Of a stretch of DNA of 42,774 bases, positions 25,184-40,168 are shown piece after piece. A model generated the notes under the pieces. That model searched no databases, was not told the DNA's origin, and saw only the letters and a list, made by a program, of their open reading frames with translations. Source of the DNA: Nanobdellota archaeon (GTDB taxonomy: Archaea; Nanobdellota; Nanobdellia; Pacearchaeales; GW2011-AR1); contig JAHJSH010000005.1 of NCBI GenBank assembly GCA_018830525.1, forward strand, positions 1 through 42,774. The letters are read 5' to 3'. The translations under genes were made by a program, and so were the position numbers. Position 1 is the first letter of the stretch. Each line of letters opens with the position of its first letter.

Positions 25184-25814
25184 TCTCCTTCAAAACTCTC
25201 TTCAATTCCCTAAAATCTTTAATAATATAATCTGGTTTTTCTTTCTTAATTGTTTTTAGATTCGACCATGCACACTTATTATGAATCGCTACAGCCCAAC
25301 ATCCAGCTTCACGAGCATACTCGATATCACTAAACCTGTCTCCAACATAAATTGCTTCACTTGGTTTAATCTTCATTTTCTTAAACAACTTCTCCAGCAT
25401 ATCATCTTTATCTTCAAACTTCTCAGCCCCATAAATCTTATTAAACAAACCTTTCAAACCAAGTTTCTTAATCGACTTTCTCAAAAAACTCGTCTCCGAA
25501 TTAGAAACGATAATCAATGGATATTTCTTTTTCAAATCCCACAATGGCTTAACCGAAACACATAATTTTATCCCACCATCAACAGCAGCCTTTGTAAAGT
25601 GCTTATAGAATCTCTTTCGAAGCGCATCAAGATGTCCTGCATTGAGACCAAGACCTTTGATGATAACATGCATCTTATTCCCCATTAATTTCAACAAGGT
25701 ATTCTGATCGAACTTGTGCCCATACTCATCAAGCGTCCGTACCATCGACTTAAATGCAATACTATGCGCATCTGATATCGTCCCATCGAAATCGAGGAAG
25801 ATTGCACGTATCAT
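25149..25814 (-). CDS. HAD-superfamily hydrolase
   Basis: IFLDFDGTISDAHSIAF; LIIVSNSETSFL; EAIYVGDRFSDIEYAREAG. Confidence 0.9.
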   Translation of the reverse strand: MIRAIFLDFDGTISDAHSIAFKSMVRTLDEYGHKFDQNTLLKLMGNKMHVIIKGLGLNAGHLDALRKRFYKHFTKAAVDGGIKLCVSVKPLWDLKKKYPLIIVSNSETSFLRKSIKKLGLKGLFNKIYGAEKFEDKDDMLEKLFKKMKIKPSEAIYVGDRFSDIEYAREAGCWAVAIHNKCAWSNLKTIKKEKPDYIIKDFRELKRVLKEINSIDRLPSRY

Positions 25815-26212
25815 TTCAATGCCTCCAAAAAATCCCTAACATCTTTAACAATCTCTTTAGTTATTGCCTCAAAAACCCATTCATCATTAATCTTGCCATA
25901 TTCATGGACAATAACATTTCTCATACCTTTAGCATTTTTTAGTTTTTCACTAAGTTCGGGAGAAATAAAACTACTATTACTAAGGATATCAAAAATATTT
26001 TTATCATCTTCTGGAGTGTTCAGGTTTCTCTCTTTAATTATCAAAAACCCCAAATCAACAACTGCCTCAATTATCCTTTCAAACCGTCTTTCACAAATGT
26101 CTCTTATTTTCCAATCAGAACTATATTCTTCAAAATTCTTGGGCAGAACCGATTCTAATTCTTCTAGATATTTTTCTATTTCAATTATTTTATCATTTAT
26201 TCTTTCATTCAT
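25811..26212 (-). CDS. hepT: HepT-like HEPN toxin (DUF86)
   Basis: RRFERIIEAVVDLGFLII...MRNVIVHEYGKIND (R-x4-HxY motif). Confidence 0.88.
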   Translation of the reverse strand: MNERINDKIIEIEKYLEELESVLPKNFEEYSSDWKIRDICERRFERIIEAVVDLGFLIIKERNLNTPEDDKNIFDILSNSSFISPELSEKLKNAKGMRNVIVHEYGKINDEWVFEAITKEIVKDVRDFLEALK

Positions 26213-26717
26213 TTTTATAAATAACCCTATGATTTTCTAGAATAGTCTTCTGAATCTTTTCAGGCAAAAATTCAAACACTTGTATGTCTATTTTATCCGA
26301 AACCTTTCCAGCAATCCTTATCCTAAATTTAAAAGCTTCTTTCTGAGTTAATTTCGTTTTAAAATGTACAGCAATATCAATATCTGAACTGAAATTTCTA
26401 GAATTTTCACTAGTTGAACCAAATAACCAAATTTCCTTAACCTTATTTCTTAATTCATCATTTAAAATTTCTTCCACAGTTTCATTAATTAACCTTTTAA
26501 CTCCCACCCCCTTTTTTAAATCAAACTCATTTTCAAATTTACTAATTTTCTTTATAAATTTTAATTTTTCCCTTATACTCCTAGACAACCTATTTTTTTC
26601 AGATTGAGTAAGATTCACACCAGAAATTTGTTTTTCAATTATTTTTAGCTCTCGCTCCCCAAATATCCTTCGAGCATTACCCATATCTTTCTTTAAAAAC
26701 TGTAATATATTTTCCAT
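26205..26717 (-). CDS. mntA: MntA-like minimal nucleotidyltransferase antitoxin with N-terminal helical extension
   Basis: IWLFGSTSENSRNFSSDIDIAVHF (GS-x10-DxD). Confidence 0.88.
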   Translation of the reverse strand: MENILQFLKKDMGNARRIFGERELKIIEKQISGVNLTQSEKNRLSRSIREKLKFIKKISKFENEFDLKKGVGVKRLINETVEEILNDELRNKVKEIWLFGSTSENSRNFSSDIDIAVHFKTKLTQKEAFKFRIRIAGKVSDKIDIQVFEFLPEKIQKTILENHRVIYKNE

Positions 26718-28926: not shown

Positions 28927-31071
28927 TTAGTCCATTCTCTTCAACAACTCTTTCAACTTAGCCGCATCAGCAATGTGATTCTTTATTTCAGAAACTTCAT
29001 AAGTCTGACTCTTCCCAATCTCTTTACCTTTAACTACCTTCAAATCTCTCATCATCTTCCTCCGTATATCATCCGAGACCAATAATTTTCCACTATCCGA
29101 ATCTGCGATTCTCTTTGCAAGGGAGATAGTATTTCCAATGCTCGTATATTTTAATTTCCCATCTCTCTTCGAAGCAATCAATTCTCCAGCATGAACACCC
29201 AAATTAAAATCAATATGTTCTCTAAACTTTTTATTATACTCAGTTAATGATTTTAGAATCATAAACCCTGCCTTTGTTGCAAGAACCTCATTAGTATAAG
29301 TCTTAGTCACTAATGGAGAAAATACAATAAAGATATACTCACCTTTCCAATCAACTAATCCTTTCATCTCTTTAGTCCCATTAATAGTTTCAATTAAAGC
29401 TTTCTTCGCATGATCCTTCAACTCAGAATAATTTTTAACACTCAAAGCCACAACTGCTGAAGGGTGCTTCTCTCCCTTTAAGACCAAGGTAGACTCTGCA
29501 GTACCCATAGTTTTTTTAGTCAAGTCCAACATACTATTATCTTCATGACTATAACTATCTGAGTCAAGCCCCTGAACCTTCGGAGATTTATTAGTAAAAT
29601 TCATACTTGAAGCGACATGGTCTTTCATCTTTGAAGGGACGTTTGAACTAACTTTTGAATGAAATTTAGAACCTATCGAACCTATTGAATGCCCGACAGC
29701 CCCAGCACCTTTTTTAAATACTCCAAAAATCTTACTAGTATGTTCTTCTCCAAGAGTTTTCGTTTTTTTAGATTTCATATAAAACACAACTCCCGCACCT
29801 CCAAGAATTAAAATCAAAAATATCCAAACAATTGAATAAGCCTTAAAGATTCCAACACTTTTAAGATCACTAACACTAACTGCATTTCCAGTCAATAAAA
29901 CTTGCTGACTCATTGAACTCTCCCCATCACTGATTGCGACATCATACTCTCCCTGCGGAGCCCTAAGACTAAATTTTCTAATCTCCCCCATTTCCATCAC
30001 CAATTCTAATTCACGGATCTCTCCCCCGATATCTACTTGAATTGTTCCGTTATATTTTGCATTTCCGACGCTTTTAACTATCAAGACTCCATCCTCTCCA
30101 AACTCAAATTCAACTTTAGGATTTTCAAGAACTGTGAACTCTCTCTGCTCTGCAAGAAGATTAAATGAAGTAATTACTTTCCAAACTCCCGGAGTAGCAT
30201 TAACAGGAAGGCTAAAACTTCGGAATTCCCCGGTAGGAATCGCTAATTCAATTTCTTCGTTCTTAGGGGAAAGAATTTTAGCAGAGACAGTTCCAATCAT
30301 TTCAATTCCGGATTGATCAGTAATCTCTGCACCAACGGTAAATTCTTCCCCGGGCATTGCCTCGTCCCCCGATAGACTGATTACCATATTAGAAGCAACC
30401 TGATTTATCTTAAATGAGACCGTAGTAAATCCTTCATTAAGAACTGAAACTCCATTCTTGTCCCTATCATAAGCCCGGATTCCTAAATCATAAGTTCCCG
30501 CCTCAATAGTATCAGGCATAGAAAATATTTCTGTCACAAAACCATCCTCAATCGCTTTACTAAATACACTAGAATTCATCCCCTCAATAAATCCATATAG
30601 CAAATCTCCATTGGCTTTAACAGCTTCAATTCTCACTGTAATTCCTTCACCCGGATTATAACTTTCCTTTTCTAATGCTGCAGTCACGAGGATAGTATTT
30701 GTAATTTGAAAAACTTTAGTAACTGCAACCCGACTTCCAATGGTTAATTTAACCTGGCAATCCCCGAGGATATCTGTAATATTAACAATCTCTAAATCTG
30801 TTCTATCTAAAACCTTATATGGAAGGCTATATGGGAGGGCCTCTTCTCCATCATATCTCCGAGCAGACATTCTTTCTAAATTAATCGTTTTATCTCCACA
30901 AACTAAATCGACATTCAGATTTCCGGTTGGAGCACCAATTAACCCTTCTGCAGTAACGTAAAGTTTGTCTCCAAGGTTGTAAACATCCTGAGGCTCAAGT
31001 AAGGTAATATCTGCAAGAACAAACGAAACTATGAAGACAAAAGCGAGCATTAAACAAATCCCTTTTTTCAT
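28927..31071 (-). CDS. Receptor-like protein: signal peptide, extracellular beta-rich region, one TM, cytoplasmic class III nucleotidyl cyclase-like domain
   Basis: MKKGICLMLAFVFIVSFVLA; TM YSIVWIFLILILGGAGVVFYM; C-terminus NLGVHAGELIASKRDGKLKYTSIGNTISLAKRIADSDSGKLLVSDDI. Confidence 0.78.
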   Translation of the reverse strand: MKKGICLMLAFVFIVSFVLADITLLEPQDVYNLGDKLYVTAEGLIGAPTGNLNVDLVCGDKTINLERMSARRYDGEEALPYSLPYKVLDRTDLEIVNITDILGDCQVKLTIGSRVAVTKVFQITNTILVTAALEKESYNPGEGITVRIEAVKANGDLLYGFIEGMNSSVFSKAIEDGFVTEIFSMPDTIEAGTYDLGIRAYDRDKNGVSVLNEGFTTVSFKINQVASNMVISLSGDEAMPGEEFTVGAEITDQSGIEMIGTVSAKILSPKNEEIELAIPTGEFRSFSLPVNATPGVWKVITSFNLLAEQREFTVLENPKVEFEFGEDGVLIVKSVGNAKYNGTIQVDIGGEIRELELVMEMGEIRKFSLRAPQGEYDVAISDGESSMSQQVLLTGNAVSVSDLKSVGIFKAYSIVWIFLILILGGAGVVFYMKSKKTKTLGEEHTSKIFGVFKKGAGAVGHSIGSIGSKFHSKVSSNVPSKMKDHVASSMNFTNKSPKVQGLDSDSYSHEDNSMLDLTKKTMGTAESTLVLKGEKHPSAVVALSVKNYSELKDHAKKALIETINGTKEMKGLVDWKGEYIFIVFSPLVTKTYTNEVLATKAGFMILKSLTEYNKKFREHIDFNLGVHAGELIASKRDGKLKYTSIGNTISLAKRIADSDSGKLLVSDDIRRKMMRDLKVVKGKEIGKSQTYEVSEIKNHIADAAKLKELLKRMD

Positions 31072-31231: not shown

Positions 31232-32335
31232 ATGACAAAGACCGTGATAAGTCCATGGGAAGTCGAGGGCGATATTGATTATAAAAAACTAATCAAACAG
31301 TTTGGAACCACCCCAATTTCAGATTTTATAAATAATAAGCTGAAAGACTGCCATCCCCTCTTGAGACGAGGAATTTATTTTTCCCATAGAGACTTCGACA
31401 AATGGCTAAAGGCTCACAGCGAAGGTAAAAAGGTCTCTGTAATCACTGGACGAGGCCCATCAGAAAAGATGCATATAGGACATTTAGTCCCATTCTTAGT
31501 TGCAAAATCTCTTCAAGATAATTTCGGATGTGATGTTTATATTCCAATCTCCGACGACGAAAAATTCTTTGTCAAGAAAAACCTAAGTTTTGAAGAAGCT
31601 CTAAAATATTCTGAAGATAATATATTAGATTTAATTGCCCTGGGTTTTGATCCAAAGAAAACTTTCATTTTTCAAGACTTTGTCTACACAGACATCTATA
31701 AATACGCCGCACGAATCGCAAAACGAATCACATATTCGACGGCAAAAGCAGCTTTTGGATTAACACCGGGGAAAAACATCGGCTGGTCATTCTATCCTGC
31801 AATGCAGGCCGCACATATTCTATTCCCCCAATTCCATTCAAGGAAACATATTTCCGTAGTTCCCGTAGCGATTGACCAAGATCCTTTTATCAGACTAACA
31901 CGAGATATCGCAACTCACAAGGATTTCAATTTAGAAAAACCTGCGGCACTACATGCACAATTTGTTCCATCGCTCCATGGAGGATCAAAGATGTCCTCTT
32001 CCGGAGAAGGATTAATCTTCCTATCAGACGATGCAAAAACAGTAAAAAAGAAGATAAACAAATACGCTTTCTCTGGAGGACAAGCGACAATCGAAGAACA
32101 TCGGAAGAAGGGAGGAAATACCAAAGTGGACATCCCATTCCAATATCTCAAGATGTTATTTGAACCAAGCGATGAAAAATTAGAAGAAATAAAACAAGAA
32201 TACGAATCCGGAAAAATGCTAACCGGAGAACTTAAAGCGATACTAATAGAAAAAATTAATGATTTCTTGAAAGACCACCAAAAAAATAAAATTGAAGCAA
32301 AAAAGAATCTCGATAAGTTTATTCTTAAAAATTAA
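31232..32335 (+). CDS. trpS: Tryptophanyl-tRNA synthetase
   Basis: SVITGRGPSEKMHIGHLVPFLVAK; HGGSKMSSSGEGLIFLSD. Confidence 0.95.
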   Translation: MTKTVISPWEVEGDIDYKKLIKQFGTTPISDFINNKLKDCHPLLRRGIYFSHRDFDKWLKAHSEGKKVSVITGRGPSEKMHIGHLVPFLVAKSLQDNFGCDVYIPISDDEKFFVKKNLSFEEALKYSEDNILDLIALGFDPKKTFIFQDFVYTDIYKYAARIAKRITYSTAKAAFGLTPGKNIGWSFYPAMQAAHILFPQFHSRKHISVVPVAIDQDPFIRLTRDIATHKDFNLEKPAALHAQFVPSLHGGSKMSSSGEGLIFLSDDAKTVKKKINKYAFSGGQATIEEHRKKGGNTKVDIPFQYLKMLFEPSDEKLEEIKQEYESGKMLTGELKAILIEKINDFLKDHQKNKIEAKKNLDKFILKN

Positions 32336-32337
32336 TT

Positions 32338-33276
32338 CTAAGGATTCTGTGGAAGAACCGCCCCACTTTTCTGAAAGAGACTACTTGTTCCAGGCAAACC
32401 TAATGTCATGGGAACTTGAGGATTAGCGCCAGTAGGTGCCACATAAGTTTTTTCTTCCACAGGGAGGGGTGCTGGAAGAATAACTGCCGCAGGGACCATA
32501 TCCTGATTTTTTGGAATTATTGCAACTGGAGCCCCCCACACTGGAGCCCGATTTCCGATAACATTTATACCTGGAGGAGATGTAATGACCTCAATTCCCT
32601 TATCTGTAATTGTCATTCCTATTGCTCTCCGCTCGTGCTTCGTCCTTCTCATTTTAGCAATTCTTACAGCCCGATCACCAGTCCCTGCAATAGGCGATTC
32701 ATAAAAAACACTAACCGAATCTGACAAGAACCTCAAAATATCTGTCTTTGACCATTCGCCCTCGGTAGACGCCCAAATACCTTCCTCCAAACTTTCATCT
32801 GCAAAAACTGTGGTAACATTAAACCTTTTCATTAACGACGACAACTCGAAAATCGTCTGCCTCATTTTTCCCTGATCATTACTATTTAATGCAAGTACTG
32901 AAATCGGATCAAAACAAATTCTCCGTATATTATTTTTAGAAATCATACGACTCAACTCGCTCTTCAACTCTTCGATAGAAGTCTGGGGTGCAAATCGCAT
33001 AAATTTAATTCTCCCCTCACTACTCATCCTTGTAAAATCCCAACCATAGGCCATAGCATCATCAAGAGTATCAATAATATCTGGCTCGAACGAACAATAA
33101 AGACCATTCTCATTAAATTTTGAAACTCCATTCCAAAGGAACTGCAATAAAAACGTCGATTTCCCAGAACCCGGTCCACCAACAATAAGATTATCAGAAT
33201 TTCTCACGAATCCACCCTGACAAATTTTATCAAAGCCAATAATTCCAGTTGGACATCTATCAATCCCCTCTACCAT
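32338..33276 (-). CDS. KaiC-like RecA-superfamily ATPase with Pro/Ala-rich C-terminal tail
   Basis: GIIGFDKICQGGFVRNSDNLIVGGPGSGKSTFLLQFLWNG. Confidence 0.87.
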   Translation of the reverse strand: MVEGIDRCPTGIIGFDKICQGGFVRNSDNLIVGGPGSGKSTFLLQFLWNGVSKFNENGLYCSFEPDIIDTLDDAMAYGWDFTRMSSEGRIKFMRFAPQTSIEELKSELSRMISKNNIRRICFDPISVLALNSNDQGKMRQTIFELSSLMKRFNVTTVFADESLEEGIWASTEGEWSKTDILRFLSDSVSVFYESPIAGTGDRAVRIAKMRRTKHERRAIGMTITDKGIEVITSPPGINVIGNRAPVWGAPVAIIPKNQDMVPAAVILPAPLPVEEKTYVAPTGANPQVPMTLGLPGTSSLFQKSGAVLPQNP

Positions 33277-33385: not shown

Positions 33386-35110
33386 ATGAAAACATTAAAC
33401 CTCCATTGCGATTATATAAAATTTAAGGCTCTCAAAAAGGCCCTAAAAAGCGTAGACGAAATCGCTCCGAACCAAAAATTAGAAGGTGAATCAAAAGAAT
33501 GTCTTGTGGTAATGGTCGCAGTAGAAAAAGGAGATTCAAAAGAAACAATTCCAGAATTAGTCGATTCGATAAAAAAAATAGCCGAAGATGTCAAGACAAA
33601 AAACATAGTCCTATATCCTTACGCACATTTATCTAGCAACTTAGGAAAACCAGGAACTGCCGTAGAAGTTCTAAACGAAACTGCAAAAAAACTCAAAGGC
33701 TTCAAGGTCGTTCAAGCGCCGTTCGGTTATTACAAATCCTTCGAACTAAAAGTCAAAGGACATCCGCTGTCTGAACTTTCTCGAGAATTTGTCGTTAAAG
33801 GAAATGAAGTAGAAGAAGCAGAATTAAGTAAGGAAGAACGAGCACAAATGTTAAGAAAATTAAGTAAGGTAAAAATGCAAGCCCCTAGGGGAAAAAATGA
33901 TTTGAAAAGTAATGTAGAATTAGGCAGAGATTTAGATTTATATATAGTAAACGAAATAGTAGGTCCTGGGCTTCCATTACTAACTCCAAAAGGAGCTACA
34001 ATAAAAAGAGAAATAGAAAGATTCACAACTGACGAAGAATTGAAGCGAGGTTACGAATATACTTCAACTCCAATTATGGCAAAGAGCGACTTATTTAAAA
34101 TTTCAGGCCACTGGCAACATTACAAGAAAGACATGTTCGTGTTAAATATCGAGGGAGACGATTATGCCCTTAGACCAATGACATGCCCATTCCAATTTGT
34201 TCTTTATAAGAGAAAACCTAGAACTTACAAAGATCTTCCAAAGAAATATGCAGAAATTGCAACATTATACCGAAAAGAACAGTCTGGAGAACTAAGGGGA
34301 TTAACAAGGCTTTGGCAATTCACTCTTGCGGATGGACATATAATTTGTACCCCCGAACAGTTGGAAGAAGAGTTCGGAAAAGTAATGGATTTAATTAATT
34401 ATATTATCAAAACTTTTGGAATAGAGGTTTGGTACAGATTTTCCAAATGGGGTCCAGATAACAAGAATAACAAATATGTGGATAATCCCAAAGCATGGGA
34501 AGCAACACAGAAATCTATGAAGAAAATATTAGATAATGCAAAGATAAACTATGTCGAAGCAGATGATGAGGCTGCATTCTATGGGCCAAAATTAGATTTA
34601 CAGTACAAAGATGTTTATGGAAAAGAAGATACTTTAATAACAATCCAAATTGATTTTGCCCTTCCTGAAAAATTCGGACTAACATATCTAGCAGAAGACG
34701 GAAAAGAAAAAGAGGCAATGGTTATCCATCGGTCTTCCACCGGAGCAACCGAGAGAATTATAGCATATTTATTAGAGAAGACCCAAGGAAATCTCCCACT
34801 ATGGTTGAGCCCAATTCAAGCAAGGATAATGACTATGAATGATGATGTCAAAGATTATGGAAAAGAAATAAAGAACAAATTAATGGAATCAGGTATTCGG
34901 GTTGAATTAGACAATTCAAATGAATCCATAGGAAAAAAGGCACGAAATGCGATTGTGGATAAAGTGTTCTATCTCGTCACCGTCGGAGAAAAGGAAAAAT
35001 CAGGCGGAAAAATCGCCGTCCGAGGAAGAGCCTCCAAGGAAATTACAACTATGGACCTAGACGAATTTATTTCTAAGTTGAAAGAAGAGATTTCCTCAAA
35101 AACCTTATAA
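33386..35110 (+). CDS. thrS: Threonyl-tRNA synthetase (archaeal type with N-terminal editing domain)
   Basis: MKTLNLHCDYIKFK..; RPMTCPFQFVLYK; TRLWQFTLADGHI; STGATERIIAYLLE. Confidence 0.95.
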   Translation: MKTLNLHCDYIKFKALKKALKSVDEIAPNQKLEGESKECLVVMVAVEKGDSKETIPELVDSIKKIAEDVKTKNIVLYPYAHLSSNLGKPGTAVEVLNETAKKLKGFKVVQAPFGYYKSFELKVKGHPLSELSREFVVKGNEVEEAELSKEERAQMLRKLSKVKMQAPRGKNDLKSNVELGRDLDLYIVNEIVGPGLPLLTPKGATIKREIERFTTDEELKRGYEYTSTPIMAKSDLFKISGHWQHYKKDMFVLNIEGDDYALRPMTCPFQFVLYKRKPRTYKDLPKKYAEIATLYRKEQSGELRGLTRLWQFTLADGHIICTPEQLEEEFGKVMDLINYIIKTFGIEVWYRFSKWGPDNKNNKYVDNPKAWEATQKSMKKILDNAKINYVEADDEAAFYGPKLDLQYKDVYGKEDTLITIQIDFALPEKFGLTYLAEDGKEKEAMVIHRSSTGATERIIAYLLEKTQGNLPLWLSPIQARIMTMNDDVKDYGKEIKNKLMESGIRVELDNSNESIGKKARNAIVDKVFYLVTVGEKEKSGGKIAVRGRASKEITTMDLDEFISKLKEEISSKTL

Positions 35111-38950: not shown

Positions 38951-40168
38951 TTATTTATAATTTATAAGCCACTTCCAAACAGGCAAAACCTTAATTATCT
39001 TGCCATCTAGTTTAAATTCATCTTCTTGTTTGTAAGTCAATATTAAACCCTGATCTAACTTAAACTCCTTTAAAGCTTCCAACATCCCAGCTATTTCCCT
39101 TTCCTGGTTTTCTTCATTAAAGTTATAACAAACTTGAATGGCCCGAGTAATTTTTTCTTTTTCTTTAATAATGAAGTCGCATTCTCTCTTCTCTTGGAAA
39201 TAGAAGATTTCTTTATATTTTCTTCTTAGAGCCAAAAAGACTAAATTTTCAAGCATCTTTCCAGAATCTTTTGAAAAAGAAGCAGAATTATTACTTGAGA
39301 AGCCATTATCTATAGAATAGGCTTTTTTAGGGTTTACTTGTTGCTGTTTAAATGAATAACTAAAACGAGGGACACTAAAGATTAGGTAAGCATTTTCAAA
39401 AAATGAGATATAATCAATGACGCTTTGTACGGATTTTATCTCAAACATCTTTTTTATTGAATTATAAGAATACTCCTTTCCAACATTACTAACCAAGAAA
39501 ATTGCTATCTTTCTTAATATCTCTGTATTTTTTATGTTAAACCTTATCGCGATATCTTTCATAACAATATCTGATAATAAATCGTGAAGAATTGTCGGAG
39601 TATTCTTCTTAACAAATTCAGGAAATCCCCCTTGGAAAAGATATTCCTTAAATGAATCTAGGGAAGGGTCCATTTTTTTTAAATTAAGAAACTCTTTAAA
39701 CGAGAATGGAAATAACTCATAACTTAAATGTCTTCCTGTAAGCCTTGTTCCCAACTCTCGACTCAATAAAGAGGCGTTGGAGCCAGTTAAAACTACTTTT
39801 TCTTTCTTATCGACTAAGTATCTTATATACTTCTCCCATTGAGGAATATTTTGAATTTCATCAAAAAAGTATACGCCTCCCCCTCCATATACCTCTTTCA
39901 TAATACTCTCAATTTTATTAAAATCACTCAAACTAAATCCCTCTAATCGAGGATCTTCCAAATTAAGATAATAAGATTTTTTCTGCCTTTTTATTAATTG
40001 GTGTAATAGGGTGCTTTTACCGCATCTTCTTACTCCAGTAATTATTACAGCAAATGAGTCCAGAATATTTAGGTCTTTTCGTTCTTCTCTAAGTGTTCCT
40101 ATATCTGCTTTGTCAAGTGATTCTCTCTGAAGAGAGATAACTTCTATTATATCTTCCTTAGTTATCAT
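38951..40168 (-). CDS. AAA-type ATPase with DUF4143 domain
   Basis: ITGVRRCGKSTLLHQLIKRQ; GVYFFDEIQNIPQWEKYIRYLVDK; VVLTGSNASLLSRELGTRLTGRHLSYELFPFSFKEFL. Confidence 0.93.
   Translation of the reverse strand: MITKEDIIEVISLQRESLDKADIGTLREERKDLNILDSFAVIITGVRRCGKSTLLHQLIKRQKKSYYLNLEDPRLEGFSLSDFNKIESIMKEVYGGGGVYFFDEIQNIPQWEKYIRYLVDKKEKVVLTGSNASLLSRELGTRLTGRHLSYELFPFSFKEFLNLKKMDPSLDSFKEYLFQGGFPEFVKKNTPTILHDLLSDIVMKDIAIRFNIKNTEILRKIAIFLVSNVGKEYSYNSIKKMFEIKSVQSVIDYISFFENAYLIFSVPRFSYSFKQQQVNPKKAYSIDNGFSSNNSASFSKDSGKMLENLVFLALRRKYKEIFYFQEKRECDFIIKEKEKITRAIQVCYNFNEENQEREIAGMLEALKEFKLDQGLILTYKQEDEFKLDGKIIKVLPVWKWLINYK

Follow-up and report, generated by a model that had tools for sequence, protein, structure and literature searches.

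A near-universal receptor-like protein in an archaeal family of the Pacearchaeales carries a class III cyclase fold that has lost its catalytic residues

Introduction

What can a nucleotide cyclase fold do in a membrane protein once its catalytic residues are gone? The question is raised by an open reading frame (ORF) on contig JAHJSH010000005.1 (assembly GCA_018830525.1) of a Nanobdellota archaeon of the order Pacearchaeales; the whole stretch of DNA analysed, here called the window, is 42,774 nucleotides long. DPANN archaea have very small genomes and, to our knowledge, little of their signal transduction has been described. A search of the open-licence literature (Pacearchaeota or Woesearchaeota with cyclase, macroglobulin or surface protein) returned no description of this protein, which is no proof of absence, and nothing close on pseudo-cyclases was found among open-licence papers. 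According to a 2021 study, class III holds very few predicted archaeal adenylate cyclases (PMC8646023).

Results

Layout of the protein

A first-pass annotation, made from the letters of the DNA, had proposed a signal peptide, a beta-rich ectodomain of about 380 aa, a transmembrane (TM) helix, a linker and an intracellular domain. All of these are present in a full-length AlphaFold2 model of the 714-aa protein (mean pLDDT 80.6), with an ectodomain of about 385 aa, and the motifs quoted at the time (ALSVKNYSEL, KGEYIFIVF and NLGVHAGELIASKRDGKLKYTSIGNTISLAKRI) occur in the ORF at 28927-31071 on the minus strand. Sequence and full-length model together give the layout of a transmembrane receptor: signal peptide, ectodomain, one TM helix and a cytoplasmic domain. 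The parts are the following.

28927..31071, minus strand: whole ORF, macroglobulin-domain receptor-like protein with pseudo-cyclase (714 aa, ATG start; homologues in 180 of 185 family genomes)
31012..31071, minus strand: signal peptide, residues 1-20, ending in FVLA before D (sequence; helix 3-15 in the model)
29857..31011, minus strand: ectodomain, residues 21-405, tandem macroglobulin/Ig-like beta sandwiches (model pLDDT mostly 80-97; Foldseek; PF01835)
29767..29835, minus strand: single TM helix, residues 413-435 (model and sequence)
29506..29766, minus strand: disordered linker, residues 436-522 (pLDDT 30-50 over most of its length; disordered stretch 435-515 in the model, pLDDT below 50)
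28981..29505, minus strand: pseudo class III nucleotide cyclase domain, residues 523-697 (profile, fold, alignment, tree)
28930..28980, minus strand: C-terminal helix, residues 698-714 (KLKELLKRM; R712 94% conserved; kept in relatives without the cyclase domain)

The signal peptide and its cleavage point were read as MKKGICLMLAFVFIVSFVLA followed by D. A conserved LTGNA(I/V)SV motif lies ahead of the TM helix and basic residues follow it, which places the C terminus inside; the C-terminal helix was modelled at residues 699-712. Immediately ahead of the TM helix, many class-level homologues share an [LI]-T-G-x-[AV] motif (residues 393-400 of the window protein, 29872-29895, minus strand; also L121, L122 and L114). 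Short profile matches to the pre-TM/TM region were also seen in unrelated surface ORFs of the order, so this motif may belong to surface proteins in general or to their processing.

When the full model was searched with Foldseek, the best matches were macroglobulin chains of complement C3/C4, A2M and CD109 (E 5e-12 and up); the TM-scores of the ectodomain matches were low because the domain arrangement differs. The MG2 profile (PF01835) was not listed for the window protein itself; it was weak in 18 of 25 relatives (best 1e-7) and above cut-off in the class-level homologues L158, L163 and L169. By these homologues and by its fold, the ectodomain contains MG2-type beta domains, and Cys58 and Cys105 within it are invariant. 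Tandem MG-type beta sandwiches are thus common to the window ectodomain, alpha-2-macroglobulin and complement C3-C4, but the window protein has only about four domains, is anchored by a TM helix and shows no thioester or bait region. Pfam gave no thioester domain in the ectodomain, and no bait region was found, A2M_BRD matching only weakly and in 5 of 25 relatives. Given these two results, and an ectodomain of only about 385 aa, we rejected an alpha-2-macroglobulin protease trap.

The inner domain has a class III cyclase fold

Searched alone, the window protein gave a sub-threshold match to PF00211 (E 0.009 for the whole protein, 0.0011 for the domain; below the gathering cut-off), whereas 23 of 25 family relatives matched, the best at 1.5e-10. 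A family profile run against the PDB found CyaB of Pseudomonas aeruginosa (1.8e-9) and Cya2 (1.1e-7). The AlphaFold2 model of the cyclase-like domain had a pLDDT of 84.6, and the best 50 PDB matches listed for it by Foldseek were all class III cyclases, among them CyaB (3r5g; E 5e-12, TM 0.68). Profile relationship and fold both confirm the domain as a homologue of class III cyclases, and they rule out a chance likeness of motifs. The first-pass annotation had described a degenerate class III cyclase domain in a transmembrane protein of a DPANN cell, and fold, degeneracy and host group were all borne out; it had named a predicted structure without the cyclase fold as the outcome that would count against it, and AlphaFold2 and Foldseek gave the class III fold.

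The domain shares with class III cyclases (PF00211; CyaB of Pseudomonas, Cya2 of Synechocystis, GC-A) the fold, the order of elements and the G-x-H/N-x-G and Y-T-x-I-G motifs, and the whole protein has the ectodomain-TM-cyclase layout of the membrane guanylyl cyclase GC-A. In contrast to these cyclases, the window family is without the first metal Asp, the base Lys and the transition-state Asn, and it has an additional conserved C-terminal helix and a macroglobulin-like ectodomain.

Catalytic residues are lost across the family

The alignment comprised the domain from 62 members of the window's family and from 12 proteins of the order's other families, together with 28 canonical DPANN cyclases and 3 proteins carrying both the ectodomain and a cyclase. 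Three catalytic sites of the window protein read as follows.

29440..29442, minus strand: Ser544, first metal-binding Asp site, Me1 (D in 1 of 62 family members, 26 of 28 canonical cyclases with 2 gapped, and 3 of 3 ectodomain+cyclase proteins)
29338..29340, minus strand: Glu578, second metal-binding Asp site, Me2 (D in 28 of 62 relatives)
29122..29124, minus strand: Ser650, transition-state Asn site (N in 5 of 62 relatives)

The family-wide losses are the first metal Asp, the base-recognition Lys (present in 3 of 62 members) and the transition-state Asn. Residue states at Me2 are less certain, since this column needs a one-residue gap. The base-recognition Thr is kept in 31 of 62 members and replaced by Met in 23, and the Arg site holds R or K, Arg alternating with Lys (32/62). 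None of the 62 has more than two of Asp, Asp, Asn and Arg; the full catalytic set occurs in none, and the two metal Asp never occur together with Asn/Arg. In the 31 intact DPANN cyclases of the alignment, Asp/Lys/Asp/Asn/Arg are present at every covered site; coverage is missing at Me1 in two canonical cyclases and at Asn/Arg in one. Thus, the earlier proposal of a non-catalytic or altered cyclase is supported by the catalytic positions of 62 family members. The losses of the first metal Asp and of the Asn in NLAxR (Ser in the window protein), noted at first for the window protein, extend to nearly the whole family, whereas the reported GE in place of GD (Glu578) fits the window protein and some relatives and is not family-wide.

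In class III homodimers, one chain contributes the metal pair of a site and the opposite chain its Asn/Arg. The Me1 Asp and the transition-state Asn, normally from opposite chains, are both gone here, so homodimerisation cannot restore the site. A search of the organism's own genome (about 86% complete) gave the window protein as the sole PF00211 match. There is thus no active partner to complement the pseudo-cyclase, and an active heterodimer was rejected for want of a second cyclase. Judged by its aligned residues, the pseudo-cyclase domain is very unlikely to catalyse. Three other genomes of the window's family (G039, G062 and G099) carry an additional, separate PF00211 ORF above cut-off (561, 271 and 366 aa, respectively) beside the pseudo-cyclase.

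Effectors that bind cyclic nucleotides (PF00027) were absent from the own genome and present in 2 of 170 family genomes; by this measure the own genome shows no cAMP signalling pathway. The further suggestion of a nucleotide-binding scaffold holds in part only, because the residues of the nucleotide pocket are not conserved.

The domain is under selection at new positions

No part of the protein is better conserved within the genus than the cyclase segment (61% mean identity, compared with 53% for the ectodomain and 43% for the linker, the least conserved segment). In the closest pairs dN/dS for the pseudo-cyclase domain was 0.12-0.17, and the domain is under purifying selection. At nine residues (P586, T589, T591, N594, E595, N613, K619, K653 and R712) conservation in the family is 82-98%, unlike in canonical cyclases; five of these residues lie in one motif.

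29287..29319, minus strand: pseudo-cyclase-specific motif SPLVTKTYTNE, residues 585-595 (P586, T589, T591, N594 and E595 82-98% conserved)

Constraint in this family has therefore moved: the catalytic positions drift, and new conserved positions have arisen elsewhere in the domain.

Distribution and gene neighbourhood

The genomes compared are metagenome assemblies, roughly 60-95% complete, sorted into numbered families; relatives are labelled Ca. Pacearchaeota or Nanoarchaeota archaeon. The receptor-like protein was found in 180 of the 185 genomes of the window's family. In an order-level sample the C-terminal domain matched in 171 of 186 genomes (160 of 166 in the family, 11 of 20 in other families), nearly always once per genome. 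The full-length profile matched 17 of the 20 order genomes outside the family, several of these matches being short or weak. The protein is no one-off; it is a near-universal, mostly single-copy family in this archaeal family. Pseudo-cyclase domains without the receptor ectodomain occur in other families of the order (L112, L113 and L123; frames of 310, 317 and 172 aa).

Next to the receptor gene lie the following genes.

31232..32335, plus strand: Trp/Tyr-type tRNA synthetase (PF00579), divergent neighbour (adjacency conserved across much of the family)
32338..33276, minus strand: KaiC-like ATPase (PF06745, E 4e-48) with a long proline-rich C-terminal tail (same strand as the receptor gene)
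33386..35110, plus strand: ThrRS-like gene (named by reading of the sequence; adjoins the receptor gene in other orders)

The neighbours of the receptor gene (the synthetase, a thiolation-type gene named by reading of its sequence, and HAD genes) are divergent or convergent, and a partner could not be deduced by operon inference: the receptor gene stands alone, so there is no operon to name one. The KaiC-like ATPase gene is near the receptor gene mainly within the genus and mostly not beyond it. For this reason we do not put it forward as the partner, though it may be one. In most forms without a cyclase, the ThrRS gene and the receptor gene are immediate neighbours; in the window's family, one to a few genes separate them. 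This gene order supports orthology of the no-cyclase forms with the window protein. Elsewhere in the window, two overlapping ORFs at 25811-26717 (minus strand) resemble, by reading of their sequence, a toxin-antitoxin pair of a HEPN (HepT-like) protein and a minimal nucleotidyltransferase (MntA-like, GS...SDIDIAV), and 38951-40168 (minus strand) encodes an AAA_14 + DUF4143 ATPase (PF13173 E 2e-39, PF13635 8e-20).

The same ectodomain with other cytoplasmic ends

A class-level search gave matches in 56 genomes of other orders, mostly to the ectodomain and TM helix, at least two of them weak. Nineteen of the 20 class-level homologues fetched have no cyclase; in these, the TM helix is followed by a basic linker and an amphipathic helix, and 13 of the 18 complete no-cyclase homologues finish in an F-x-x-F type end (GLFNMFN, GNPFNIFD). 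These proteins (L155-L172) have the ectodomain and TM helix of the window protein, and many lie directly beside the ThrRS gene, but their cytoplasmic part consists of the basic linker and the amphipathic helix, and in many it closes with an F-x-[MIL]-F-[DN] motif. Helix and final motif suggest a common cytoplasmic partner.

In three other families of the class the ectodomain is fused to an intact class III cyclase: G440 (L154/L213), which was one of the 20 homologues fetched, and G341 (L215:6951-9431) and G277 (L096/L214), which were found through the PF00211 search. Ectodomain and TM helix are homologous to those of the window protein and the cyclase is C-terminal (profile E 1e-42 to 1e-61 over ectodomain and cyclase). 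Unlike the window protein, all three have every catalytic residue (e.g. FTDIRDF, KYLGD, NLASR), are without the C-terminal helix and lie outside the ThrRS gene context.

In one genus inside the order (L107, L109) the cyclase domain is lost, but the C-terminal helix (LREEAKPFIERALRK) is still there. The ectodomain tree places this loss as nested and secondary, and a contig artefact was rejected, as the ORFs of two genomes are complete and finish with the conserved helix; the other PF00211-like match in G200 is a separate 659-aa frame.

A tree of 48 cyclase domains has a branch (95/90) that separates the 30 pseudo-cyclases from all the others, and the three intact cyclases with the ectodomain lie between the pseudo-cyclases and the other canonical cyclases. 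This topology fits, and does not prove, an origin of the pseudo-cyclase in a receptor cyclase that bore the same ectodomain. In the ectodomain tree, the three intact-cyclase receptors are on long branches, placed weakly and apart, so they may be ancestral or may have come about by separate fusions.

Discussion

The cyclase fold of this protein, being without catalytic residues, probably signals by protein binding and not by chemistry. We favour, with somewhat better than even confidence, a surface receptor-like protein whose pseudo-cyclase is a dimerisation or protein-binding output module that does no catalysis. The tandem macroglobulin-type beta domains outside the cell would take up ligand or tension, which would alter the arrangement or dimer state of the pseudo-cyclase; the changed state would change the partner presented, no cyclic nucleotide being made, and the conserved C-terminal helix would act together with the pseudo-cyclase in this output. 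We infer dimerisation and protein-binding output, and signalling from the architecture alone. A role in protein contact is favoured by the loss of catalytic residues, a pocket that is not conserved, the near absence of cNMP effectors, the relocated constraint and a helix that outlives the cyclase. The non-catalytic halves of mammalian adenylyl cyclase and soluble guanylyl cyclase are a known parallel: like the window domain they keep the class III fold and have lost catalytic residues, and they have regulatory or partner-binding roles. However, those halves complement a partner chain into an active site, and no partner cyclase was found in the own genome.

A purely structural anchor would look similar, which weighs against the receptor reading. 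The protein could be a structural or adhesive surface protein (an S-layer anchor, a host-contact or an envelope-organising protein) with the pseudo-cyclase as a constitutive dimerisation plug under the membrane. We consider this main rival unlikely, although core envelope parts typically occur, as this protein does, in nearly every genome as a single copy, and ectodomain and TM helix are conserved class-wide while the cytoplasmic part varies from a short basic tail to a pseudo-cyclase or an intact cyclase, and is without the cyclase domain in one genus of the order. A passive plug should not need a domain that is the best conserved within the genus and carries specific near-invariant residues, and fusion of the ectodomain to intact cyclases in three lineages is a receptor architecture. 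The loss in one genus, together with other orders that never show the domain in this gene, does indicate that the output is not indispensable everywhere.

Less probable again is a sensor whose pseudo-active site holds ATP, GTP or a cyclic (di)nucleotide without turnover and so reads energy or messenger state. Degenerate GGDEF domains, which have a related fold, serve as ligand receptors, and by analogy such a use is conceivable here; the base-recognition Thr (31/62) and the Me2 Asp (28/62) are partly retained. On the other hand, the rarity of the base Lys (3/62) and the Thr/Met (23/62) and Arg/Lys (32/62) alternations point to a pocket without common constraint. We give very little credence to an active cyclase with altered residues or to one half of an active heterodimer: the overall fold is kept and some members retain the second Asp and the Arg, but Me1 Asp and transition-state Asn are both missing, a homodimer brings no rescue, and the own genome (about 86% complete) gave no other class III cyclase.

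Coming back to the protein-binding output module, its history can be sketched tentatively, at a little under even confidence: an ancestral macroglobulin-receptor cyclase may have given up catalysis in a single event at the base of the order, and the cyclase fold may then have become a core, near-universal protein-binding output domain fixed order-wide. Beyond the first-pass annotation, the analysis shows a near-universal family, a domain akin to those of real receptor cyclases, and a class-wide ectodomain with different cytoplasmic ends. Essentially every genome of a large family thus carries a catalytically dead yet strongly conserved cyclase fold, the origin of which is framed by relatives with an intact cyclase and relatives with none. 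If the proposed reading is true, minimal and probably host-dependent cells would have a transmembrane signalling or surface-organising route that lacks a second messenger. One ectodomain with an active cyclase, a pseudo-cyclase or none is a natural series in which the role of the pseudo-cyclase can be tested directly, as can the way in which these cells sense their surroundings or attach to them.
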